Below, piece by piece: positions 1,793 to 30,841 of a DNA stretch of 32,972 nucleotides. The stretch's first letter is position 1; every line of letters begins with the position of its first letter. Under the pieces are notes generated by a model. It ran no database searches, was not told the origin of the DNA, and was given only the letters and a program-made list of their open reading frames with translations. The position numbers and the translations under genes are program-made. Source of the DNA: Ruminiclostridium sp. (lineage in GTDB: Bacteria > Bacillota > Clostridia > Oscillospirales > Ruminococcaceae); contig JAGBMA010000168.1 in NCBI GenBank assembly GCA_017635095.1, forward strand, positions 1-32,972, given 5' to 3'.

Positions 1793-1883
1793 ATAATAGT
1801 TGTGGGCCGGCGGCGCTTTTTGTGTGCCGTTCACGTCCACCGGAGCAAGTAAATCAGGCTCGGAAAAGGAAAGGAAAATAGAT

Positions 1884-2663
1884 TTGAAAAAGACAACTTT
1901 ATGTGCAGGCATACTTACGGCAGTACTCTGCTTCTCGGCCTGCGGCAACAGCGTTCCCGCAAACACAGTAAATTCAAAGAGTGACCTTGAAGGCAAGTCA
2001 ATAGGTACTCAGCTCGGTACCACCGGCTACATCTTCGCAGGCGATGTCAAGGACGCCACGGTTGAAGCATACAACAAGGGCGCAGATGCTATCCAGGCTC
2101 TCAAACAGGCTAAGATAGACGCTGTGCTGATAGATATGGAGACTGCAAAGGAGTTCGTGAATAAAAATCCCGATCTCCGCATTCTTGATGAACCTTTCGA
2201 CGAGGAGGAATACTCCATTGCATACGCCAAGGGCAACGACGAGCTCGGTCAGAAGCTTGAGAACGCTCTCACGGAACTCAAGTCCGAGGGGGTTCTGGAC
2301 GATATCGTATCTCACTGGATCGGCGACGGAGCGGATCACGTTCCCTACGCTTCCACAGCCGCAGACAAGCCGAACGGCACACTCACAATGGCTACAAACG
2401 CGGAATTTCCGCCTTACGAGAGCATGGAGGGCGGCAACATCGTCGGTATCGACGTTGACATGATGACCGCCGTATGCGACAAGCTCGGCATGGAACTCAA
2501 AGTAGAGAACATGGAATTCGACTCGATCATTACCGCCGTTACTTCCGGAAAAGCCGATGTCGGCGTTGCCGGAATGTCGGTCACGGAAGACAGACTCAAG
2601 AACGTAAACTTCACTCAGGGCTATGCGACATCTACACAGGCTATTGTGGTAAGAGCGTCATAA
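1884..2663 (+). CDS. Circularly permuted polar amino acid-binding lipoprotein (ABC transporter)
   Basis: Extracellular substrate-binding protein of a polar amino acid ABC importer. I chose the TTG at 1884 because an AGGAAAGG site lies just before it and it opens a lipoprotein signal peptide with lipobox FSAC (Cys20); the upstream ATG at 1800 would add a non-signal extension and lies at the promoter. Residues about 33-147 match the second half of the SBP_bac_3 family (GKSIGTQLGTTG, then ILDEPFDEEEY and a terminal helix region). Residues about 164-257 match the family's first half (LTMATNAEFPPYE, VGIDVDMMTAV, FDSIITAVTSGKADV, ending QAIVVR). The usual order is the reverse. The total of 259 residues is normal for one complete protein, and the frame has no break. 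The permease and ATPase follow directly. Confidence 0.9.
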   Translation: MKKTTLCAGILTAVLCFSACGNSVPANTVNSKSDLEGKSIGTQLGTTGYIFAGDVKDATVEAYNKGADAIQALKQAKIDAVLIDMETAKEFVNKNPDLRILDEPFDEEEYSIAYAKGNDELGQKLENALTELKSEGVLDDIVSHWIGDGADHVPYASTAADKPNGTLTMATNAEFPPYESMEGGNIVGIDVDMMTAVCDKLGMELKVENMEFDSIITAVTSGKADVGVAGMSVTEDRLKNVNFTQGYATSTQAIVVRAS

Positions 2664-2708: not shown

Positions 2709-3401
2709 TTGGACGCATTCATTCAGAAGCTGTATGATACATTCATATACGACGACAGGTGGAAGTACCTTACAAACGGACTCTGCACGACACTCATAAT
2801 CACGGTATTTGCAGTCATTATAGGTATGCTGCTCGGGTTCCTTGTGGCTATCGTGCGCGCAACACACGATAGAACCGGCAAGCTCAGAGTCCTCAACTTC
2901 TTCGCAAAGATCTACCTTACCGTTATAAGAGGAACGCCGGTAATGGTACAGCTCCTCATAATCTACTACATAATCTTCGCTTCGGTGCGTGTGGACAAGA
3001 CCTTCGTCGGTATCCTCGCGTTCGGCATAAACTCGGGCGCCTACGTTGCAGAGATCGTGCGCTCGGGTATAATGTCCATAGATCCCGGTCAGTTTGAGGC
3101 GGGTGCAAGTCTCGGTCTCAACTATCCCAAGACTATGCTTTATATCATCATGCCACAGGCGTTCAAGAACATACTCCCCGCTCTCGCAAACGAATGTATC
3201 GTGCTCCTGAAAGAGACTTCGGTAGCAGGTTACATCGCTCTCGAAGACCTCACCAAAGGCGGAGATATCATACGAAGCGTTACCTACGAGGCTTTCCTGC
3301 CGCTTATCGCAGTCGCCCTCATCTACCTTGTGATAGTTGTAGGACTGAGTTCGCTGGTCGGTAAACTTGAGAGGAGGCTGAAAAAGAGTGATAGAGGTTA
3401 A
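2709..3401 (+). CDS. Polar amino acid ABC transporter permease
   Basis: Membrane subunit of a His/Glu/Gln-type ABC importer, 230 residues, usual for the family. The start is a TTG with GGAGG about 8 bases before it. Several hydrophobic segments are visible, and the EAA loop that contacts the ATPase is present ([20 protein letters not shown] followed by [15 protein letters not shown], residues about 117-165). An RGTPVMVQL segment near residue 80 is typical of this subfamily. It sits 45 bases after the binding protein and overlaps the ATPase gene by 14 bases, so translation is probably coupled. Since only one permease is present, it likely forms a homodimer; this is inference. Confidence 0.93.
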
Positions 3402-4113
3402 GGATCTCAGAAAGTCATTCGGCGACCTTGAAATACTCAAAGGCGTGAATACTACAATAGAACGCAACGAGAAGGTCGTTATCATAGGTCAGTCCGGCTC
3501 TGGAAAAAGTACGTTCCTGCGCTGTCTCAACCGTCTCGAAAAGCCTACCGGCGGCTCCATAGTATTCGAGGGCACAGACCTTACCACCGCGTCGGAAAAA
3601 CAGCTCTACAAGGTGCGCGAAAAAATGGGAATGGTGTTCCAGCACTTCAACCTCTTCCCTCACCTTACTATCCGCGGGAACCTTACCCTCGCCCCGGTAA
3701 AACTCAGGCTCCTTTCAAAGGACGAGGCCAACGAGCGCGCGGAGAATATGCTCCGCAAGGTAGGGCTCTATGATAAGGCGGACAGCTACCCGAATATGCT
3801 CTCCGGCGGTCAGAAACAGCGTATAGCCATTGCCCGTGCTCTCGTTATGAACCCGGACGTTATGCTTTTCGACGAGCCTACTTCGGCGCTTGATCCGGAA
3901 ATGGTCGGAGAGGTGCTCGAACTTATGAAGCAGCTCGCCGCGGAAGGCATGACCATGATCGTGGTCACACACGAAATGGGGTTTGCAAGAGAAGTCGCGT
4001 CACGGGTGCTGTTCATGGACGGCGGCGTTATCGCCGAGGAAAACGAACCGAATGAGTTTTTCAATGCCCCGAAAAACCCGCGTCTTCAGTCGTTCCTCTC
4101 AAAAGTGCTGTAA
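3388..4113 (+). CDS. Polar amino acid ABC transporter ATP-binding protein (GlnQ type)
   Basis: Cytoplasmic ATPase that drives the importer formed with the two preceding gene products; 241 residues, normal length. Visible motifs are Walker [10 protein letters not shown] (34-42), Q-loop Gln85, signature LSGGQKQR (138-145), Walker B VMLFDE (158-163) and the switch His195 (VTHEMG). The start is a GTG inside the end of the permease gene, with GAGGAGG 10 bases before it. All residues needed for ATP hydrolysis are present. The exact amino acid cannot be read from the sequence. Confidence 0.96.
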
Positions 4114-4128
4114 CGGAGATATACATAT

Positions 4129-5025
4129 ATGTCACCTAAACTTCGCGGCAGCATAATGCTGCTCATAACGGCGATGATATGGGGACTCGCGTTTGTCGCA
4201 CAGACGGACGGGATGAACTATGTCGGGCCGTTCACTTACAACGCGTGCAGGACCCTGCTTGGCGGAACAGTGCTTATCCCGGTGATCGCACTGCTCCGGC
4301 TTACGCAGAAAAAAAGCAATGACTCCGCACCGAAAGCGCCGGTAAAGACAACTGTCATCGGCGGTATCGTATGCGGGGTCGTATTTTTTATCGCAAGTTC
4401 GCTCCAGCAGTCCGGTCTCACCATGACCACCGCAGGCAAAGCCGGATTTATCACCGCTCTTTACATTGTCATAGTGCCTGTGTTTGGCTTCATTATCTAC
4501 CACAAGACCTCGCTTAAAGTCTGGATATGCTGCATGATCGCGGTGGCGGGATTCTACCTTCTCTGCATCAACGAAGGTTTCAGCATTTCCTCCGGCGACC
4601 TTCTCGTTCTTGCCTGCGCATTCTTCTTCGCCCTGCATATAATAGTCATAGACAGGTTCAACGCGAAAAACACCGACGGACCGCTGATGTCCTGTGTCCA
4701 GTTCTTCACCGCAGGTATAATGATGCTGGTGTGTATGTTCATTTTCGAGAAGCCCGATATCGGCGCGATACTCGCCGCATGGCTCCCGATACTATACGGC
4801 GGCGTGATATCCTGCGGAGTCGCTTATACCCTCCAGATCCTCGGTCAGCGCCATACCGACCCGACTGTCGCTACCCTTCTCATGAGCCTCGAATCCGTGT
4901 TCGCAGCGTTGTCGGGCTGGCTTATACTCAACGAGAGCCTCAGTTTAAAGGAGCTTTCAGGCTGCGTTCTCGTATTCATAGCGGTTATCCTCGCACGGAT
5001 AGATACACGGAAAAAGAAGTCATAA
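4129..5025 (+). CDS. EamA/DMT-family transporter
   Basis: Inner-membrane protein of 298 residues with about ten hydrophobic segments in two similar halves, as in the EamA (drug/metabolite transporter) family. The N-terminus (LLITAMIWGLAFVAQ) and the AGKAGFITALYIVIVPVFG and LLMSLESVFAALSGW segments are characteristic. It begins 15 bases after the ATPase gene with a GGAG site and an ATG, so it probably belongs to the same transcript, which ends at the terminator at 5037-5073. Related proteins export amino acids or metabolites, so it could balance the importer; the substrate is not determined. Confidence 0.92.
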   Translation: MSPKLRGSIMLLITAMIWGLAFVAQTDGMNYVGPFTYNACRTLLGGTVLIPVIALLRLTQKKSNDSAPKAPVKTTVIGGIVCGVVFFIASSLQQSGLTMTTAGKAGFITALYIVIVPVFGFIIYHKTSLKVWICCMIAVAGFYLLCINEGFSISSGDLLVLACAFFFALHIIVIDRFNAKNTDGPLMSCVQFFTAGIMMLVCMFIFEKPDIGAILAAWLPILYGGVISCGVAYTLQILGQRHTDPTVATLLMSLESVFAALSGWLILNESLSLKELSGCVLVFIAVILARIDTRKKKS

Positions 5026-5093: not shown

Positions 5094-8000
5094 TCATGCC
5101 CTGACTACCGATACATTTACATTCTCAAAGTTCACAGGATAGTTCTTCGGGCTTATCGTCACGCCCTTGAGAACAAGGTCGTAATTTTTACCGTCAGCGC
5201 TCTTTACAGTGAACTTAGCGCCGTATGTCGGGAGCGTGAATGTCTTTGTTTCAAGATTGGAATAGATCGTGACAACATATTCATTCTGGTTTGTACGGTC
5301 AGTTCTGGAAACTGTATTGATGTACTCAAAGAGCTTCTCGAAACTTGTGTACTTTGTGGTCTCGCCGCCGAGTACAAGCCATACTGCATCGGGAACTTCC
5401 GCGCGTATCTCCCTGCCGTACGTTACTGCAGTAAGATCACCGTTGTTGGAATCCTTGTTCAATATGGATATCTTTGCGGAAATATCTGCAGCGGAGCCTG
5501 TATTCAAAATCTTTGTTCCGCTTGGGAGAGGTATTTCATTGCCGCCTGCGTCCTTCACTGTGATCTTTGCAGTATTAGCTGCGTTTGTCACAGTAAATGT
5601 CGGGAGCTTTATTCCGTCAGCTTCATCGTCAATAAGCACGATATTCGCGCCGTTCGCTTCGCTTCCGAGAGTCGTTACGGTCGCAGCGGACTTTTCGGGA
5701 AGAATGAGCTGTGCGTCTTCCCCGCTCGTCTCAAGCACATTTACTCCTGTCATGGTCACATTTACTTCAAGAGGAGCTTTAAGCGAAACTTTACCGAATG
5801 TGGTCACTCTGTCTGCCGTCACGGTTCCGTCAGCTGTTTCAAGGGTCGATGTTGCAGTTCCGGTAAGACTGCCTATCTTCATATCGTTGTTCCAAAGCAC
5901 AAGCTTTCCGCCGGCATTTATTGAAGCGTTCACAGTTACGGACTCTGAAACTTTAACATTATTGAGCATCAGCGTCTTTGTCCCGTTGAAGGCGAAGGCT
6001 GTTACCTGCGCAGTTCCGTTTCTGTCGAGAGGAACAAGAACAACATTAGTGAGTGTGAACTCGTATCTCGGTGCAAGAGCAGTCAGGTTGTGAAGCGTGA
6101 GGGTATGTCCGCCGCCAACGATATTGAGAATAGCGTTGTTACCGAGATTTGTCGGAAGAACGAATGTCTGTGCGTCGATATCCTCGTTCATGGTTATCAT
6201 ATTTGAAGCACCCTGCTTTGCTGCCTTGAACGCAAGCTCGAAGTTAGGGAAGTTATCCGTGAAATTGTCATAAGAGAGAGTAAGTGCGTCTGAATACTCC
6301 GCCTTGAGGGTTGTGCCGTAGAGGTATGCTGTGAGCGGTTTGCCGTCTGTAAGCGAAGTTTCGTTTACGATCGTGATCTGAGAGCTGTTGAACTTAGCCT
6401 CGCCGCATCTCAGAGTGAAGAGTTGTGTTCCGCTCGGTAAAGCTATCGCACCACCGTCGGGTGTGCTCTTTACTGTGATCTCCGCGACAGCGCTGTCAGC
6501 TATGTTTGTCACATTGAGTGTCGGGAGCTTCATTCCTGCCGCCGCGTCGTCGATAAGTACGATCTTCGCGCCGTTTTCCGCAGTTCCGAGAGTCGTTATG
6601 GTCGCGGCTGACTTTTCGGGAAGAACGAGCTGTGCGTCTTCGCCGATCGTTTCAAGCACATTCACTCCGGACATATTTCCGGTAACTGTGAGGCGATGTT
6701 TGAGCTCGGCTTTTCCGAACGTTGTAACATTCTTCGCTTCTTCCGGTGCACCGTCAACAGTGAGTGTCGATGTCGCTGTTCCGGAAATATTACCGAAATT
6801 GATGTTATTGCCGTTAAGCTCGATCGTACCGCCTGCATTGATAGATGTATTTACTGTCGTAGCTGCATCTATAGTAGTAGATTCGATATAAAGGTACCTC
6901 GAAGCATTTATCGTAAGCGCAGGAACCTGTGCAGTTCCGTTTCTGTCGAGAGGAACAAGGTTGACATCCTGAATAATGAATCCGTACCTCGGTGCAAGAG
7001 TCGTGATGTTATGAAGTGTGAGCGTATGACCGCCATTTATCTCAAGAGAACCTGTCGCTCCGAGGTTTGTCGGGAGAACAAATGTCGGTGCGTCGATATC
7101 CTCGTTGAGAGTGATCTTGTTATCTACATTCTGCTTTACCGCTCTGAACGCAAGCTCGAAGTTCGGGTAATTATGTGTTGTGCTAACATTTTCATCAACC
7201 ACTGTCTTTAGCGTGAGCATATCCGCGTACTCTGCACGGACGTCTGTGCCATATACGAACGGCGTGAGCGGCTTTGCAGTATCATCATTGTTCGTTGTCT
7301 TATTCCTGATACTGAACAGATCCGCGATGTCCGCATTGCTTACATTATATCTGAATATCGAAGTGCCGCTTGCGATCTCGCTTAATTCAATGCCCTCATA
7401 GATCGCTATTGTCACGCGCTCTGTGCCGATATCGCCGGTCGCATGAGCCGCCTTGCCTATCGTGAGAGCGGAGATCTTGGAATTGCCCCTTGCGTCAACG
7501 CCCTTTTCGAGGTGGATCTCGGAGCCGGTAAGAACAGTCGTGAAGTTCGCTGTAGCAGCAATATCTTTCAGAACTACGTTTCCTGCAAGTTCGGCAGCGG
7601 TGATGTTCTTGTTTATAACAAGTTCTGCATCTATTCCCGTGTTCACGTTCTTGAACGAAGTCACGGAATCCGCTTCCGAAGTTCCGGTCACATAAAGCGT
7701 ATTTCTGCCTGTAACAGTACCGAATCCGATAAGTCCGGAGATCTCGGTATCTGTGCCGTTTGCTGTGACATTGGGCTTTACGTTCTCAGCTTTAATATTC
7801 CTGAACATCATATTCTTGCTGCCGGTAATGTTGAGGCTCCTGCCCTTTATATCAAGCGTTATGTCCTTGATAGTGAACGGGCTTGCCGCACTTATGGAAG
7901 TAACGCCTGTGCCGAGGGTAAGGGTCTTATTGTTACCGTCAAGTATGAACTCAGTTGTATAGCTTGTCGGTAATGCAAACGCGTCTGCCGTGCAGTTTTC

Positions 8001-11000
8001 ATTGAGCGTTACGGTATAGCTGTGCTCCGTTCTGCTTCTTACTTCGCCGGAAATGTAGCTGAACATCTTCACAAAGCTCGGGTAATATTCAGCATTTCCG
8101 TCTGTGGTAAGTTTTATAGCGTCCGAGTACTCCGCCTTGACGTTTGAACCGTAGCAGTACGCAGTGAGAGGCTTTGCATTCAATTCGTCGAGCGTCGTCT
8201 TGTTCACTATCGTGATTTTTGTGCCGTCAAACTTCGCTTCGCCGCCGTTGAACGTGAATATCGGTGTGCCGGACTTGAGAGCAATCTCATTATGACCCGT
8301 ACTGTCTCTTACAGCGATCTTCGCGTTCGTGACGATGTTCGTTACCGTGAGCTTCGCGATCTTTATGCCTTCCGCCGCATCGTCTATAAACATGATATTT
8401 GCAGACCGGTAATTATCGTATTGCGCGTCCGGTATGGTATTTACCGCATTGTCTGCAATACCGAGGTTGGTTATTGTAGCGGCAGCCGTATCTTTTAATA
8501 CCAACTCTCCGCTTTCCTTAGTTCCGAGGTAGGTAACGCCCGCCATGCTCGTTGAAACAACTAAATTGCTATCGATCTGCACCACGCCGAATGTCGTTAT
8601 TCTTTCGGTGGTATGCGCGCCTGATACAATAAGAGTAGATGTTGCTGTACCTGACAGATTAACGAAATTCACACTATTGTCTTCAAGCAAAAGTTCAGAT
8701 TTCGCACCTACAGACACGCTTATATCCGCACTGCAGTTTACTCTGGTAAGTTGAACGCTGCTGCTTCCGCTTATCGTGAACGCCGTAACATTCGGTTTGC
8801 CGTTTCTGTCGTTAATGACAAGATTCAAGTCAACGAACATGAGAGTGTATCTTGGACTGAGGCTCGTTATGCCGTTGAGCATGAGCTTATTACCCTTTCC
8901 GTTGATCTCAAGAGATCCGCCTGTTCCAAGGTTCGTCGGAAGTGTGAACTTACCGTAAGGAACATCTATGTCCTCATTGATATAAATAGTGTTATGCGTA
9001 CCGGACTGTACCGCTGCAAAGGCTTTCTCAAAGTTCGGATAATTCTGATTGAAGCCGTCATCTGTTGTGAGAGTAAGTGCCGTTGAATACTCCGCCTTGA
9101 GGGCTGTACCATAGAGGTACGCTGTAAGCGGCTTGCCATCTGTGAGAGAAGTCTGGTTCACGATGTTGATGAGTGAGCTTACGTTTTCATCTGTGAACTT
9201 CTTCTCGCCGCAGCTCAGAGTAAAGATCTGAGTGCCGCTCGGTAAAGCTATCGCATCACCGTCAGGTGTGCTCTTTACTGTGATCTTTGCGGTACTATCT
9301 GCTGCTATGTTCGTAACGTTTAACGTCGGAAGCTTTATTCCGGTCGCCGCGTCGTCGATAAGCACGATATCTGCACCATAAGGCGCATCACCGAGCGTCG
9401 TGACAGTCGCAGAGGACTTTTCGGGAAGAATGAAGGAACCGCTGTCGGAAGTGAAAAGCTCGTTTACTCTGGACATCGTTCCGGTGACTGTGAAAGGGAA
9501 TTTCAACCAAACCATATTGAATGTTGAAACATTCTTAGCTTCTTCCGAAACTCCATCAATCGAAAGCAATGATGTTGCGGTTCCGGTAAGATTACCGAAC
9601 TCACAGCTGTTATTAAGGAGCCAGAGAACTCCGCCCGCGCCGACGGTAACATTTACCACCGTGGGAGAGCTGCAAACAACACGAATAAGATTAACACTCT
9701 TTGTGCCGTTTACTGCAAACGTCGTTACCTGTGCATTTCCGCTCCTGTCGAGTGGAACGATAGTCATATCGTTGAAGGAAAAATCGTATCTCGGAGCAAG
9801 GGCTGTAATGTTGTGGAGCGTCAGCTTATTACCGCCGCCGTTGATATCAAGAGAACCTGTCGCTCCGAGGTTTGTCGGGAGAACAAATGTCGGTGCGTCG
9901 ATATCCTCGTTGAGAGTGATCTTGTTATCTACATTCTGCTTTACCGCTTTGAAAGCAAGCTCAAAGTTCGGGTAATTCTGTTCTGTAATGACATTATTAT
10001 CAACTGATGTTTTTAGTGTAAGCGCATTTGCACTCTGAAGCTTGACGTCTCTGCTGTAGAGATAAGCATAAAGCTCGTCGTTTCCGGCTACCTTTATAAG
10101 ACCGCTGTAGTTGTTGGGATAGAATACCGTGTCGCTGCAGGTCATCGTGAAGATCTTTGTGCCTGCGGGCAATACAAGCGGTGAATCATCGGATAATTTC
10201 CATACGGCGATATTGACCTGATTATCAATATAGGTAGCTGTGAGGGTCGGGAGCTTTGTGATATTGCCGTTATCGTCTGTCTCGGCGATAAGGTCGATGT
10301 ACGCGTTCTCCGAGGCACTGCCGAGGGTGGTTATGGTCGCGGACGATGTTGTCTCAAGAATGAGCTTGTTATCGGATATATCCGACGAGAGCCTTACAAC
10401 ACCGCTTATTGTTCCGGTGACAGTGAGAGGAGCTCTGAGCAGGATTGCGCTGAATGTTCTTACACTCGCCGCTGTCACCTCTGCACTCTCGACTTTAAGT
10501 ACCGATGTTGCAGTTCCGGTAAGTGTACCGAACCTACAGGTGTTGTCGGAGAGACAAAGTTCTCCGCCCGCGCCGACGGTAACATTTACCACCGTGGGAT
10601 TGCTGCATACAACCTTGTCAAGTGTAACACCCTTCGTGCCGTTTATTGCAAAAGCCGTTACCTGTGCGCTTCCGGTTCTGTCGAGCGGAACAAGAGTTAT
10701 GTTGCTGAATGAGAGATGGTATTTCGGGACAAGGTTGGTGATGTTGTGGAGTGTAAGGGTGTGGTCACCGCCATTGATCTCAAGCGAACCTGTCGTTCCG
10801 AGATTTGTCGGGAGAACGAATGTCTGAGCGTCGATATCATCGTTGAGGGTTATTGTGTTCTGAGCATTCTGCTTTACAGCCTTGAATGCAAGATCAAGGT
10901 TCGGGTAGTTCTGCTCCGAACCGCCGTCAGCGGAGAATGAAATAGTACCTGCATATTCTACGCGTACTTCTCTGCCGCTGCTGTAATAATAGAATGCGTT

Positions 11001-14000
11001 GAGGACATTACCGTCTGTGTTCTTGTTGGTGATCTTGATATGACTGCTGTAACCTTCGCCGTAGAAAGTCGTCTCCGGGCAGGTCATATTGAAGATCTTT
11101 GTGCTGTCCGGTAATGCAATAACAGTACCGTTACTGTCTTTGATAGTTATTGTTGTATCGGGCTTTTCTTCGGAATAGAAGTTCACATAATTTGAAGTGA
11201 GCTTCGGGAGCTTTATGCCGTCTGTCGTGTCTGCAAGAATAGTGATATCTGCGCCCGCAAGAGCGTTTACCGAGACATCGGCGCTGTTTTCGATCACAAT
11301 TTTATCGCAAAGCTGATCGACTGAGGAAACTTTGCCCTTTATTACAACAACGCCTTCCGTTTCTGTGCTGACTCCGCCGATATTGGTGATGTTGTTGACA
11401 GTGAGAGGCGAATGAGCCTGGAACCAGCCGTTCCTGTTGTAGCCGGTGATGCTGTCAATAACGAAGCCGATACTGCCGAGACCGAGGTAGGAATCAACGC
11501 TTCCTACCGAGAAGCCGACCTTTGTGTTTGCATTTTCATCGGCGAGCTGGAGATCAAACGCGGTGAGTTTCTTCGTAGATGAGATCGAGATGCTTGCAAC
11601 AGGATTGTTGTACCTGCCGAGACTTCTGAGCTTAACGTTGGCGAGCTGGAAGTTCACGACGGCGTTTATAGTATTGCCGCCGTTGAGGTCTAAAACGAAA
11701 GTCTCTTCAGGACCGCTGTCACCATACGGGCTCAATATCTCAAGCGAGCCGCTTCCAAGATTTCTCGGTAAGTTAGCCGTATTGAGAACAGTGTCTGCTT
11801 TCAGTATGATGCTGTTATTGCAGTCCTTCTGTACGTCCTTGAGAGCAAGGTCAATATTCGGATAAGAACGCCAGAACTTCAGTTCACTTTCGCCGGGCTC
11901 CGATACGCAAAGCTCGATCTTACCGGAGATCTCCGCGCGGATATCTGTACCGTAGAGGAATGCGTCAAGATCCTTCGTATCAGGTGTTTTGTTGTAGATC
12001 TGGACCTTATCTGTGAAGTTGACTGATGCATTTGATGCCTTGAACAGGTTTGTTCCGGACGGGAGCGCTATGGGCTCATAATCGTCATCTGCATCTACGA
12101 CAGCTACCGCAAGTTTCTTGCCGTCAGCTATGTCCTTTACGGTAAGGCTTGAAATGGTATAAACTCCGTTGTTTTCAGATGCACGGAGATATGCAACAGA
12201 GTCACCTGTGATATTTTCGACAGTTGCCTTTGAGGTCGTCTTATCGAGGTTTACATTACCGGAGAAATTTTTGATGCCGGACATATTTCCGACAACTCTG
12301 AGGTTTCCGGAACCTTCGACTGTGACATTGCGGAACGTCGTAAGATTATTGAGGGTCGCGCCGGTCGTGAAAAAGTCTATTGTGTTTTTACCGGTCACGT
12401 TGTTTATATTGGTATAGATATTACCGAGTCTGACAAACGCGCCCGCGATCGAACAGTTATTGGTGATATTGAATGCGGTATTGCCTTCGATCTTGACATT
12501 TTCAAGACCGATATTGCCGGTTCCCGTAAGGGTCACAGCAGAGATCTCTGTGCCGGCTGCATTTTCAAATGCAAGTCGTATGTTCTTGAAATAGATGTTG
12601 CAGGGAGCAGAGAGGCTTGTAAAGCTGCCCTTGAATGTAACGGTGTAGTTATTCTCAACATCATCGTTGCACTGGAGCATTACGATTCCGCCCAGCGACG
12701 ACATCTTCGAGATATCGAACTTCTTCGTTACAAGGTCAGTGCCAATAGTGAGGTAGTTGTCGCATCCGGGAACGATATTGTCAAGAGCAGCTTCCAGATT
12801 CGGATAGGGAGCGTTGGATACATCCTCACCGTTCTTTCTGACTGTGAGCCATATCGCGTCCGCATATTCCGCGCGTATCTCCGTTCCGTACTTGAACGCT
12901 GTGAGATCATTGCCAGAGTCATCTGCCGTTGTTTTGTTCTTTATGTCGATCTTATCGGATCTGAAGCTTCCGGCCGCCGTTGTGCTTAAGAGCTTCGTTC
13001 CGGAAGGTACAGCTATTCTTTCGTCTTCCGCATCTATAACTTCAATTTCAAACCAGCTGTCATCACCGGTGGGCAGATTATCGACGGTAAGCGAAGCAAT
13101 GCTGAGTACACCATTGTTCTCGGCTGCACGGAGCTTTATGCTTGCATAAACGTCTATACTCCTTGCAGAAACGGAAGTTGTGATCCTGTCAAGAATTATA
13201 CTTCCATTGAGGTTAGTTATCTGGGAGATCGAACCTATGACACTGAGATTTCCTTTCCAGGTACCTACATACGTTACGTTGGAAATGGTATTAACACTAA
13301 CGGTTTCTGTTTCTTCTGCCACTTCAACGATAAACTTTGTATTTGCCGCACCGCTTATTGCATTATAATTATTGGGATAGCCGGCTGTAACAGTCTTGCC
13401 CGCGGCGATCCTGATATCAGGGCCGCTCTGGGACGCAGAGACTGCAAGAACACTTCCTTTGATATTAAAGTCCGCATTTGCATTTATCGTGTTGACATAA
13501 AGTATAACGCCTTCCTTTGTCTCAAAAGAAACGGAGTTTGCTTTTGCGGGTATCGTCAGAGTTGAGTACGATGAATCTTGATTTAAGGTGATATAGTAAT
13601 CCCCGGATTCTGTTATATCATTAAGGGCATCCTGAATACTGAGGTAGTTCTCACCGTCCATCACTACGGGCGGATTTTCGGGATCAACAATAACCTTAAC
13701 GTCGAGCGTTGCAGTCTTTCCGCCGTATGAGAGCGTCAATGTCTGATCTCCGAGCTTTACGGAATTATATCCGGAGACTGTGAGAGCGCCATTGGAAAGC
13801 TCCTCAGCCATATCAAACTCTTCCGACTCGCCGTTATCATGATAAGCAACAAACTTACCTCCGCTGAGGTCGAAGTCATTTCCATACACGAATTGTGTAT
13901 TTGTGGGGGATACACTTATTTCAATTCTCACCACATCATTAGTTGGATTAACTGTGTCGAGTGTACATGAAGGAAGTGTTGTATAGCTCCAATGATCCTT

Positions 14001-15410
14001 GTAAGCGTGTGCTTTAGGGTTATAATTGTCGTTCGCAAGGAAAGTAGCATAGCTCTTGTTGACCCATCTGTCATCATAATAAGTCGAACCGCGGTCATCA
14101 TCATACCATGTAAGATCAAGCTCGTAATAATTATTATACAGATTAACTATATTCCATGCATGACCGTCGCTATTGACATAGAAAGCGTCAATTCCTGCTG
14201 CGTTGCAGAAGTACGCGGTCATCATAGCATATCCGGCACATACGGTAAGGTGGTCAGTGTTAAGAACACTGCTTATAAGGCTTTGATCGAATGTAAGACG
14301 AGCCTTCGCAGCAGAATCGGTCTGGGAATCATTATTCGCCCAATCATCGTATGTAATATAGTCAGCAACAAGATCTATGATCTTTAATTCTCTCTGAAGC
14401 TGACCGCCCGCCGCATTTATCTGCGGCATCCATGAATTTGTAAGACTGTCAAGAGCGGATTGAGCCGACTGTCTCTGCGCAGCCTTGCTGAAATCATGTC
14501 CGTCAACGGTATAGAAATAAATAGAAACCTGTCTGTTGCCGCTTCCATCAGTTCCCGTACCAATAGTATTTGAAAGGAAATAATACTGCGGATTCGAGAA
14601 CCTGAAAAATTCGACTATAGCTCTTGCTCGTGTAAAGTCCATAGAACCTATCGGAGCATATCCAATAAGCATTGCGCTGCCGCCGCTGGTGAAATTAACT
14701 TGAGTGTCATAATCATCATTGCAAACAAGAACAGCCTCACAGTCTTGCCTAAGCTGATCATAGATTGCTTTATCCGCAGCTGTCATCTTGCTGTAAAGAT
14801 AGTTCGACGAAAAAGTATAAGAACTACCCCTGTCAACATTTGAATAAGTACGCTGACTGAGTTCCTCTTTTGCTTTCTCAAATTCTTCGGTCGGTACTTC
14901 GACTATGATACTGTCTAGCACGTCATTGAACGGATAGAGCTTATTGACTTTATCAAGATAATCCGGGCTTGAAGTCAATTCAACAATATCGAAAATAGAA
15001 ACAGGCTCCTGTTCTTTATCTTCGCCCTCTTCGTCTTTGCCCTCTTCGTCCTCCTCCGATTCTTCCGCCGGCTCTGTGGTATCGTCATCGGCATCATCAT
15101 TGTCCGTTTCGGGCGTTTCCGTATTCTCAGACAGTGTCCCGGACGTGTCATCGTCATCAGGCGTGTCTGATGTATCGCCGGTGTCCGAAGTACCGGACGC
15201 GGTGTCACTGTCCGGAGCCGTGCTTTCAGTGTCAGAGGTCTCTTCACCCTCAGGCGAAGTTTCCATAACGGTGGTCTCCTCCGTCAGATCCGAAGCAGCC
15301 GATGTGACTGCCGCATCGGGAAGGTCTGCCGAATAAGCGGCAGTTGCAGGCTGTGTCATTACCATAACAGCAGCTAGGAATCCCGATATTACTCTCCTGA
15401 ATTGTTTCAT
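5094..15410 (-). CDS. Giant secreted repeat protein with transglutaminase-like domain
   Basis: A protein of about 3438 residues. The ATG at 15410 is preferred over in-frame codons ten residues upstream because AAAGGAG lies just before it and it opens a Sec signal peptide (residues 1 to about 29). An Asp/Glu/Thr/Ser-rich linker follows (to about 130), then a region of unknown family, then a transglutaminase-like domain with the expected triad: Cys391 (VCAGYA), His417 (GHAWN) and Asp432 (ELDLTWYDD). A bacterial Ig-like domain occupies about 500-590. The remainder is about ten diverged repeats of roughly 310 residues, rich in beta strands and Asn/Thr, marked by NYPNFELAFKAVKQ, FVLPTNLG, TLTLHNIT and LIDDAAGIKLP-like segments. 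Such domains in secreted proteins can be peptidases or cross-linking enzymes; adhesion or surface remodelling is inference. No LPXTG, SLH or dockerin signal is seen, and the last repeat is incomplete. Confidence 0.9.
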   Translation of the reverse strand: MKQFRRVISGFLAAVMVMTQPATAAYSADLPDAAVTSAASDLTEETTVMETSPEGEETSDTESTAPDSDTASGTSDTGDTSDTPDDDDTSGTLSENTETPETDNDDADDDTTEPAEESEEDEEGKDEEGEDKEQEPVSIFDIVELTSSPDYLDKVNKLYPFNDVLDSIIVEVPTEEFEKAKEELSQRTYSNVDRGSSYTFSSNYLYSKMTAADKAIYDQLRQDCEAVLVCNDDYDTQVNFTSGGSAMLIGYAPIGSMDFTRARAIVEFFRFSNPQYYFLSNTIGTGTDGSGNRQVSIYFYTVDGHDFSKAAQRQSAQSALDSLTNSWMPQINAAGGQLQRELKIIDLVADYITYDDWANNDSQTDSAAKARLTFDQSLISSVLNTDHLTVCAGYAMMTAYFCNAAGIDAFYVNSDGHAWNIVNLYNNYYELDLTWYDDDRGSTYYDDRWVNKSYATFLANDNYNPKAHAYKDHWSYTTLPSCTLDTVNPTNDVVRIEISVSPTNTQFVYGNDFDLSGGKFVAYHDNGESEEFDMAEELSNGALTVSGYNSVKLGDQTLTLSYGGKTATLDVKVIVDPENPPVVMDGENYLSIQDALNDITESGDYYITLNQDSSYSTLTIPAKANSVSFETKEGVILYVNTINANADFNIKGSVLAVSASQSGPDIRIAAGKTVTAGYPNNYNAISGAANTKFIVEVAEETETVSVNTISNVTYVGTWKGNLSVIGSISQITNLNGSIILDRITTSVSARSIDVYASIKLRAAENNGVLSIASLTVDNLPTGDDSWFEIEVIDAEDERIAVPSGTKLLSTTAAGSFRSDKIDIKNKTTADDSGNDLTAFKYGTEIRAEYADAIWLTVRKNGEDVSNAPYPNLEAALDNIVPGCDNYLTIGTDLVTKKFDISKMSSLGGIVMLQCNDDVENNYTVTFKGSFTSLSAPCNIYFKNIRLAFENAAGTEISAVTLTGTGNIGLENVKIEGNTAFNITNNCSIAGAFVRLGNIYTNINNVTGKNTIDFFTTGATLNNLTTFRNVTVEGSGNLRVVGNMSGIKNFSGNVNLDKTTSKATVENITGDSVAYLRASENNGVYTISSLTVKDIADGKKLAVAVVDADDDYEPIALPSGTNLFKASNASVNFTDKVQIYNKTPDTKDLDAFLYGTDIRAEISGKIELCVSEPGESELKFWRSYPNIDLALKDVQKDCNNSIILKADTVLNTANLPRNLGSGSLEILSPYGDSGPEETFVLDLNGGNTINAVVNFQLANVKLRSLGRYNNPVASISISSTKKLTAFDLQLADENANTKVGFSVGSVDSYLGLGSIGFVIDSITGYNRNGWFQAHSPLTVNNITNIGGVSTETEGVVVIKGKVSSVDQLCDKIVIENSADVSVNALAGADITILADTTDGIKLPKLTSNYVNFYSEEKPDTTITIKDSNGTVIALPDSTKIFNMTCPETTFYGEGYSSHIKITNKNTDGNVLNAFYYYSSGREVRVEYAGTISFSADGGSEQNYPNLDLAFKAVKQNAQNTITLNDDIDAQTFVLPTNLGTTGSLEINGGDHTLTLHNITNLVPKYHLSFSNITLVPLDRTGSAQVTAFAINGTKGVTLDKVVCSNPTVVNVTVGAGGELCLSDNTCRFGTLTGTATSVLKVESAEVTAASVRTFSAILLRAPLTVTGTISGVVRLSSDISDNKLILETTSSATITTLGSASENAYIDLIAETDDNGNITKLPTLTATYIDNQVNIAVWKLSDDSPLVLPAGTKIFTMTCSDTVFYPNNYSGLIKVAGNDELYAYLYSRDVKLQSANALTLKTSVDNNVITEQNYPNFELAFKAVKQNVDNKITLNEDIDAPTFVLPTNLGATGSLDINGGGNKLTLHNITALAPRYDFSFNDMTIVPLDRSGNAQVTTFAVNGTKSVNLIRVVCSSPTVVNVTVGAGGVLWLLNNSCEFGNLTGTATSLLSIDGVSEEAKNVSTFNMVWLKFPFTVTGTMSRVNELFTSDSGSFILPEKSSATVTTLGDAPYGADIVLIDDAATGIKLPTLNVTNIAADSTAKITVKSTPDGDAIALPSGTQIFTLSCGEKKFTDENVSSLINIVNQTSLTDGKPLTAYLYGTALKAEYSTALTLTTDDGFNQNYPNFEKAFAAVQSGTHNTIYINEDIDVPYGKFTLPTNLGTGGSLEINGKGNKLMLNGITSLSPRYTLMFVDLNLVINDRNGKPNVTAFTISGSSSVQLTRVNCSADISVSVGAKSELLLEDNSVNFVNLSGTATSTLIVSGAHTTERITTFGVVQIDSNLVVSTSMAGVTYLGTKESGELVLKDTAAATITNLGIADNAVNTIPDAQYDNYRSANIMFIDDAAEGIKIAKLTVTNIVTNAKIAVRDSTGHNEIALKSGTPIFTFNGGEAKFDGTKITIVNKTTLDELNAKPLTAYCYGSNVKAEYSDAIKLTTDGNAEYYPSFVKMFSYISGEVRSRTEHSYTVTLNENCTADAFALPTSYTTEFILDGNNKTLTLGTGVTSISAASPFTIKDITLDIKGRSLNITGSKNMMFRNIKAENVKPNVTANGTDTEISGLIGFGTVTGRNTLYVTGTSEADSVTSFKNVNTGIDAELVINKNITAAELAGNVVLKDIAATANFTTVLTGSEIHLEKGVDARGNSKISALTIGKAAHATGDIGTERVTIAIYEGIELSEIASGTSIFRYNVSNADIADLFSIRNKTTNNDDTAKPLTPFVYGTDVRAEYADMLTLKTVVDENVSTTHNYPNFELAFRAVKQNVDNKITLNEDIDAPTFVLPTNLGATGSLEINGGHTLTLHNITTLAPRYGFIIQDVNLVPLDRNGTAQVPALTINASRYLYIESTTIDAATTVNTSINAGGTIELNGNNINFGNISGTATSTLTVDGAPEEAKNVTTFGKAELKHRLTVTGNMSGVNVLETIGEDAQLVLPEKSAATITTLGTAENGAKIVLIDDAAAGMKLPTLNVTNIADSAVAEITVKSTPDGGAIALPSGTQLFTLRCGEAKFNSSQITIVNETSLTDGKPLTAYLYGTTLKAEYSDALTLSYDNFTDNFPNFELAFKAAKQGASNMITMNEDIDAQTFVLPTNLGNNAILNIVGGGHTLTLHNLTALAPRYEFTLTNVVLVPLDRNGTAQVTAFAFNGTKTLMLNNVKVSESVTVNASINAGGKLVLWNNDMKIGSLTGTATSTLETADGTVTADRVTTFGKVSLKAPLEVNVTMTGVNVLETSGEDAQLILPEKSAATVTTLGSEANGANIVLIDDEADGIKLPTFTVTNAANTAKITVKDAGGNEIPLPSGTKILNTGSAADISAKISILNKDSNNGDLTAVTYGREIRAEVPDAVWLVLGGETTKYTSFEKLFEYINTVSRTDRTNQNEYVVTIYSNLETKTFTLPTYGAKFTVKSADGKNYDLVLKGVTISPKNYPVNFENVNVSVVRA
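7042..7143 (-). repeat. 102-bp block identical to 9847-9948
   Basis: This block and the one at 9847-9948 match base for base, including third codon positions, while the flanking parts of the same two repeat units differ. It encodes the AVKQNVDNKITLNEDIDAP-type segment. Recent gene conversion or unequal crossing-over between units is the likely cause. Confidence 0.85.
9847..9948 (-). repeat. 102-bp block identical to 7042-7143
   Basis: Partner of the block at 7042-7143, about 2.8 kb away (three repeat units). A shorter 38-bp identity also links 9629-9666 with 10562-10599, so exchange between units seems to have happened more than once. Confidence 0.85.
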
Positions 15411-15454
15411 ATTAGTACTCCTTTCGGTCATGATGTACATAAATATACAAGTTA

Positions 15455-30765: not shown

Positions 30766-30841
30766 GCTGATATGGCTCAGTCGGCAGAGCACATCCTTGG
30801 TAAGGATGAGGTCGTCGGTTCGATTCCGACTATCAGCTCCA
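30766..30841 (+). tRNA. tRNA-Thr (anticodon GGT), CCA encoded
   Basis: The cloverleaf is complete: acceptor GCTGATA / TATCAGC, D-arm GCTC...GAGC type, anticodon stem CATCC / GGATG around loop TTGGTAA (anticodon GGT), T-arm GTCGG-TTCGATT-CCGAC, discriminator T and encoded CCA. It reads the Thr codons ACC and ACT. The integrase gene begins 179 bases after it, which makes its 3' part the likely integration site of the element. Confidence 0.97.

Follow-up and report, generated by a model that had tools for sequence, protein, structure and literature searches.

The closest described systems are the canonical amino-acid-binding proteins GlnH, ArtJ, TmArgBP and AncQR, in which the two lobes are linked by two covalent crossings and the N-terminal half of the chain, called B here, precedes the C-terminal half, called A. 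The 32,972-nucleotide stretch of a Ruminiclostridium sp. genome (contig JAGBMA010000168.1) analysed here, referred to as the window, encodes a lipoprotein, P0001, which shares with these proteins the Pfam family, the secondary-structure elements, the Arg and Asp positions discussed below, the lipoprotein anchor and the operon type, but differs from them in that the halves are reversed, the termini lie at the hinge and one covalent crossing would take the place of two.

According to the available excerpts of the respective papers, natural permutation is known for other binding proteins. Glycine betaine-binding proteins, including OpuAC (2b4l), are circular permutants according to CPSARST (PMC2395249); they differ from P0001 in Pfam family and ligand class, and a high root mean square deviation, together with the pseudo-symmetry of the lobes, makes it uncertain whether the cut site is the same. 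A term search of the available text of the OpuA paper (PMC2861598) returned no words for permutation or swapping. TpMglB-2 (Tp0684) and its relatives, grouped as 'Type Ic / Cluster Bc', are naturally permuted, and their authors suggest that tethering might favour permutation (PMC4990184). As far as the same excerpts go, TpMglB-2 resembles P0001 in being a tethered binding lipoprotein, of the ABC (ATP-binding cassette) importer type, with a naturally permuted chain; it differs in its type I sugar-binding fold, in binding glucose, in the reordering of its N-lobe strands and in having gained a fourth hinge crossing, whereas P0001 loses one. Permuted halves of a type I protein have also been engineered (PMC9815098). 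In the case reported here the permutation is found in the SBP_bac_3 lineage, where it has recurred; no report of natural permutation in this family was recognised in a full-text literature search, most subscription journals lying outside it. The permutation is easily missed, because profile searches show an ordinary binding protein split into two matches.

Half order and predicted fold of P0001

P0001 is encoded by an intact reading frame with a TTG start (Table 1). It matches the SBP_bac_3 profile (PF00497) at 113.2 bits, above the curated cut-off of 26.4, in two stretches, the best of which pairs residues 167-258 with profile positions 1-92 of 132. When aligned to AncQR (4zv1, 233 residues), residues 164-257 correspond to chain positions 9-103 (i-Evalue 1.3e-20) and residues 28-148 to positions 108-233 (i-Evalue 6.1e-19); the known structure is thus spanned end to end, each part once, the first by half B and the second by half A. 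TmArgBP (6svf, 4prs) gives the same reversed-order alignment. The swap of the halves, proposed in the initial annotation with limits at residues 33-147 and 164-257, is therefore recovered by separate alignments that are both reversed and complete, and the proposed limits fit. Since the order of the halves is the reverse of that usual in SBP_bac_3, A being followed by B, P0001 is regarded as a permuted variant and not as an ordinary member of the family. Judged by these alignments, it is a complete SBP_bac_3 amino-acid-binding protein with its C-terminal half placed first, and very probably a natural circular permutant, the lipoprotein that captures the substrate for an amino-acid ABC importer.

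At E-values up to 1, the only other family matched is Lig_chan-Glu_bd (PF10613), of which P0001 is not a member (27.8 bits against a curated cut-off of 30); among the families at this threshold, neither the OpuAC profile nor a type I sugar-binding profile, of the Type Ic kind, matched P0001. The end of P0001 (residue 257) falls at position 112 of the 115 in the PF10613 profile, a position which we take to be near the channel insertion site of ionotropic glutamate receptors, by analogy only.

AlphaFold2 predicted one confident single-chain fold for P0001, with a predicted local distance difference test (pLDDT) score of 89.5 and a predicted template modelling score (pTM) of 0.83. In this model the elements of half A (H32-35 to H137-145) precede those of half B (E166-171 to E248-257), while in the canonical relative L031 the corresponding elements appear with B ahead of A. 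Foldseek aligned L031 to 4zv1 over 225 columns (TMt 0.88) and P0001 over 79 columns (TMt 0.33): the P0001 model resembles solved amino-acid-binding domains well only one half at a time, L031 from end to end. A structure prediction had been proposed as a check in the initial annotation, and its outcome, a single confident chain with the canonical elements in rotated order, is in line with the swapped order expected there; the placement of the new termini at the inter-lobe hinge is likewise supported.

In the arrangement proposed, the ancestral C-terminus would have been joined to the ancestral N-terminus via the 16-residue linker, and the new termini would have opened at the first crossing between the lobes. 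Starting from the lipid anchor, the chain would then build lobe 2, cross the hinge once, form the C-terminal part of lobe 1 and continue through the linker into the remainder of lobe 1, leaving the lobes linked by one covalent crossing, not two, and placing the tether at the hinge edge of lobe 2. Because the conserved pocket positions are drawn from both halves of P0001, as in canonical relatives, closure of the Venus-flytrap type is most likely; on the grounds of family knowledge and conservation, the lobes would close on a polar or basic amino acid, to be handed to the adjacent permease and ATPase. The ligand class is a guess, made because Arg or Gln is the ligand of the best-matching solved relatives. 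Only 12 residues separate Cys20 from the start of half A, and a hypothesis is that the cut, together with a tether so placed, gives a looser hinge or a changed reach.

Table 1. Coordinates of the P0001 gene, its parts and the adjacent transporter genes in the window
Feature	Positions	Strand	Basis
Ribosome-binding-like purine-rich stretch ahead of the TTG start	1866..1874	+	sequence read directly; inference
Circularly permuted SBP_bac_3 lipoprotein (P0001), 259 aa	1884..2663	+	profile search, structure alignment, AlphaFold2 prediction
Signal peptide, residues 1-19, last residues FSA	1884..1940	+	sequence
Cys20, putative lipid attachment, lipobox FSAC	1941..1943	+	inferred from lipobox
Half A, residues 33-147: lobe 2, second hinge crossing, C-terminal part of lobe 1; normally last	1980..2324	+	
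New linker, residues 148-163 (16 residues), bridging the ancestral C- and N-termini	2325..2372	+	
Half B, residues 164-257: N-terminal part of lobe 1 to first hinge crossing; normally first	2373..2654	+	
Permease (BPD_transp_1, amino-acid type)	2709..3401	+	profile match
ABC ATPase; top NCBIfam hit GlnQ at 307.8 bits, short of the equivalog cut-off (379)	3388..4113	+	profile match

Distribution, conservation and variety of the permuted relatives

Near-full-length collinear matches to P0001, extending from residue 40 (approximately) or earlier to residue 253 or later within frames containing a single binding domain, were counted by hand in overlapping genome samples, each including the genome of the window; not every row was classified and the counts are floors. 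Matches were found in at least 20 of the 71 genomes of the genus group, in at least 91 of 396 in the family sample, and in at least 30 of 394 and 24 of 391 in the order and class samples, respectively; the phylum sample yielded at least 3 of 348, one of which (G1261) lies outside the class, taken to be Clostridia on the basis of the named records. Five of the 91 family-sample matches are permease fusions (frames of 501-536 residues), one of which, G249, has an internal stop. Eight of 915 plasmid records matched, each in two pieces. Recurrence in 20 of the 71 genus-group genomes excludes chance as the source of the order.

The frames around 217 fetched loci and in the window comprise 139 of A-B order, 40 of canonical B-A order, nine A-B-permease fusions and eight of a third order, A2-B-A1; the loci were picked by similarity to P0001, with gene copies kept, and these figures are not frequencies among all binding proteins. 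Rows were retained if they spanned at least some 90 profile positions of A and 80 of B, and identical ones were removed, which reduced the A-B frames to 126 and the B-A frames to 33; filtering for near-identity brought the rows, all kinds together, down to 167. The 126 distinct permuted rows, which include that of the window and one from Ruminococcus callidus ATCC 27760 (L027), come from many genomes, so that the search for homologues of the same order, suggested in the initial annotation, found them to be common.

Both R237 and D84 are kept in all 126 permuted rows; by GlnBP-type structures, these are presumably the positions which bind the carboxylate and amino groups of the ligand. In 29 modules from the arrays described below, the Arg is present in all and the Asp in 55%. 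A simple regular expression picked out a lipobox in 118 of the 126 rows. The window was compared with 18 loci, L023 and L046 among them being copies of one gene, for the ratio of nonsynonymous to synonymous substitution rates (dN/dS); in the non-saturated comparisons it ranges from about 0.06 to 0.15 for half A (6 of 18 saturated), from about 0.02 to 0.09 for half B (3 of 18) and from about 0.4 to 1.0 for the 16-codon linker (7 of 18), which changes faster than the halves. Going by these ratios, purifying selection acts on both halves. The genetic context is conserved as well: where more than 1600 bases were available downstream, permease and ATPase genes directly follow the binding protein in 41 of 44 permuted loci and in 24 of 27 canonical ones, none of the eight A2-B-A1 loci having enough downstream sequence to enter the count. 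The intact permease-ATPase operon reported for P0001 is supported, both genes following it in the window.

The variety of the family exceeds what the initial annotation had led to expect, since it is large and includes a second cut site, permease fusions and arrays. The second permutation type, A2-B-A1 (L188, L207, L208, L209, L211, L212, L214, L215), has its ends inside lobe 2, between the helix corresponding to P0001 residues 85-94 and the next strand (98-100). In eight other loci (L102, L103, L105, L106, L168, L170, L198, L199) the permuted protein is fused by its hinge-side C-terminus straight to the permease, and L104 is similar, but its gene is broken by a stop. One polypeptide of 1015 residues from stop to stop (L068:756-3800, minus strand) joins a permuted binding domain, a permease and an ATPase. 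The genome of the window contains a second, divergent, permuted solo lipoprotein (L072:1272-2366, minus strand), the half B of which aligns over positions 2-64 only of the B profile.

In the clade there are also arrays, in which two to four permuted modules are fused to a permease. The genome of the window carries five such proteins (L064, L065, L066, L067, L071), of 1011-1259 residues from stop to stop, each composed of a hydrophobic N-terminus, three or four A-B modules and a permease. The 27 modules of nine arrays, these five included, were compared, near-ties within 10 identity points being accepted. In all 27, the A and the B of a module had their counterparts in one and the same module of another array; a B and the A after it led to neighbouring modules in 8 of 18 cases, in a test which is harder at array ends, so that the contrast is somewhat inflated. 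When the top match is taken without near-ties, the two halves are in agreement for 16 of the 27 modules. This pattern suggests that the exchanged unit is A-B rather than B-A. Tandem binding domains on a permease are also found in GlnPQ of Lactococcus; its domains are canonical in order, in contrast with most fusions among the relatives of P0001, which are A-B. Residues 29-254 of P0001 match chain positions 102-326 of GlnPQ (6h30) in a single run, because A of one GlnPQ domain precedes B of the next.

Origin of the permuted order

The two halves of P0001 find their best canonical matches in the same proteins, L031-L036, with 73-97 bits for A and 115-120 bits for B, against 28-42 bits for the canonical paralogues of its own genome (L001, L002). 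One parent is proposed for A and B, because the closest canonical relatives score high in both. The most likely route for P0001 would be an in-frame tandem duplication, giving B-A-B-A, from which the first B and the last A were then lost, as put forward in the initial annotation. Indirect support comes from in-frame tandem canonical copies, three in L180 and two in L189, and from L178 (1393-2220), which represents a separate event. This permuted protein is the sister of canonical L156 (support 98), and its C-terminus runs beyond B into SSKIQSIDDL, the start of A (EDSDIASIDDL in L156), and then into DPYYLPAE and a stop, the latter motif resembling canonical ends such as KYIPAE and KYITAE. The tail looks like the remnant, or scar, expected where duplication was followed by an internal deletion in the A half of the copy, and judging by the tree tests below L178 was permuted independently of the other type-1 (A-B) permutants. 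No such tail was found in the other permuted rows of the 126, of which 124 have 1-7 residues after B; the 16 residues which follow B in L131 are unrelated to it. Duplication followed by trimming thus appears to be the best-supported route, the P0001 gene itself being without a scar.

Trees were computed with IQ-TREE on 81 representatives of the 167 rows, without all 28 array rows and two long-branch canonical rows, those of L027 and L158. On a quick tree the three orders need 8 changes. By the approximately unbiased (AU) test, a single group of all type-1 rows including L178 was rejected (p 1.6e-5), and with it one origin of all permuted order; without L178, the type-1 group, which was named after inspection of the tree, was weakly rejected (p 0.027). 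Neither a single type-2 (A2-B-A1) clade (p 0.573) nor a clade of the in-group canonical rows, type 2 and L178 (p 0.592) was rejected. These two constrained trees surpass the unconstrained quick tree by 4-6 log units; the quick tree is therefore not the best one, and its 8 changes may be an overestimate. The placement of canonical L152 inside a permuted group, obtained with FastTree, was not reproduced by IQ-TREE and was not used. At least three switches of order are likely, leading to the main type 1, to type 2 and to L178. We lean towards the broader view that this clade of clostridial proteins has been repeatedly re-cut, at two or more sites and three times at the least, probably also reverting to canonical order, and that the permuted module is a shuffled building block, used alone, fused to the permease or arrayed.

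An error of assembly, in which a chimeric contig would hide the missing half upstream and the order would be unreal, had been named in the initial annotation as a possible refutation. The genome of the window is split into 236 contigs, but genomes assembled separately, among them R. callidus ATCC 27760 (L027) and the one-contig G186, show the order again, with a linker and downstream genes of like kind; an artefact was therefore rejected, its probability being practically nil. Half B is better conserved than half A, which would suit a fusion in which A and B came from separate binding proteins that had converged on the fold, a possibility considered for TpMglB-2 in the available part of its paper (PMC4990184). 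This origin is highly improbable, the preference of both halves for the same canonical proteins over those of their own genome speaking against it.

It is unlikely that the solo permuted protein derives from a permuted multi-domain permease fusion rather than from a solo gene. The same genome does carry A-B arrays fused to the permease, and in the tree the solo forms are intermingled with single fusions; the array modules, however, are far less like P0001 (about 10-59 bits per half) than the canonical solo proteins are, and the arrays group apart from the solo proteins, if weakly (one change, support 74). Activity only as a domain-swapped dimer, or a role as a non-transporting sensor, is very unlikely, given the confident prediction of the P0001 monomer, the continued adjacency of permease and ATPase and the invariance of R237 and D84, even if half-lobes engineered from a type I binding protein are able to exchange segments (in the available part of PMC9815098) and the half B of the divergent L072 covers only part of its profile.

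With P0001 read as a natural circular permutant, the clade offers close receptor pairs, roughly 50-60% identical per half, which would have one or two crossings and differing tethers, so that one could test directly how hinge connectivity and tethering affect the capture of the ligand and its transport. Apparent steps of permutation by duplication are present, namely tandem canonical copies, a scarred permuted gene and finished permutants. A re-cut clade, if true, would amount to a natural experiment that bears on the reasons why evolution shifts the ends of a two-lobe receptor, and natural permutants with ends at the hinge may serve as biosensor scaffolds.

Neighbouring genes

In nine loci (L024, L025, L027, L043, L044, L045, L047, L048, L074), some of which share one genome, a canonical binding-protein gene on the opposite strand adjoins the permuted gene; no such neighbour is present beside P0001 in the window. 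A gene for an EamA-family transporter (4129-5025) starts 15 bases past the ATPase gene and is possibly part of the same operon. A scan of the window with Rfam for an RNA regulator hinting at the ligand returned only a tRNA (30766-30838). The upstream open reading frame (63-1640), for which no Pfam match was found, contains seven exact copies of QIEAMLA within LTQEQIEAMLAGN-like repeats, presumably recalling the N-terminal motif of FliM. On the minus strand, positions 5094-15440 encode a repetitive, surface-like protein of 3448 residues with a Big_3 domain.
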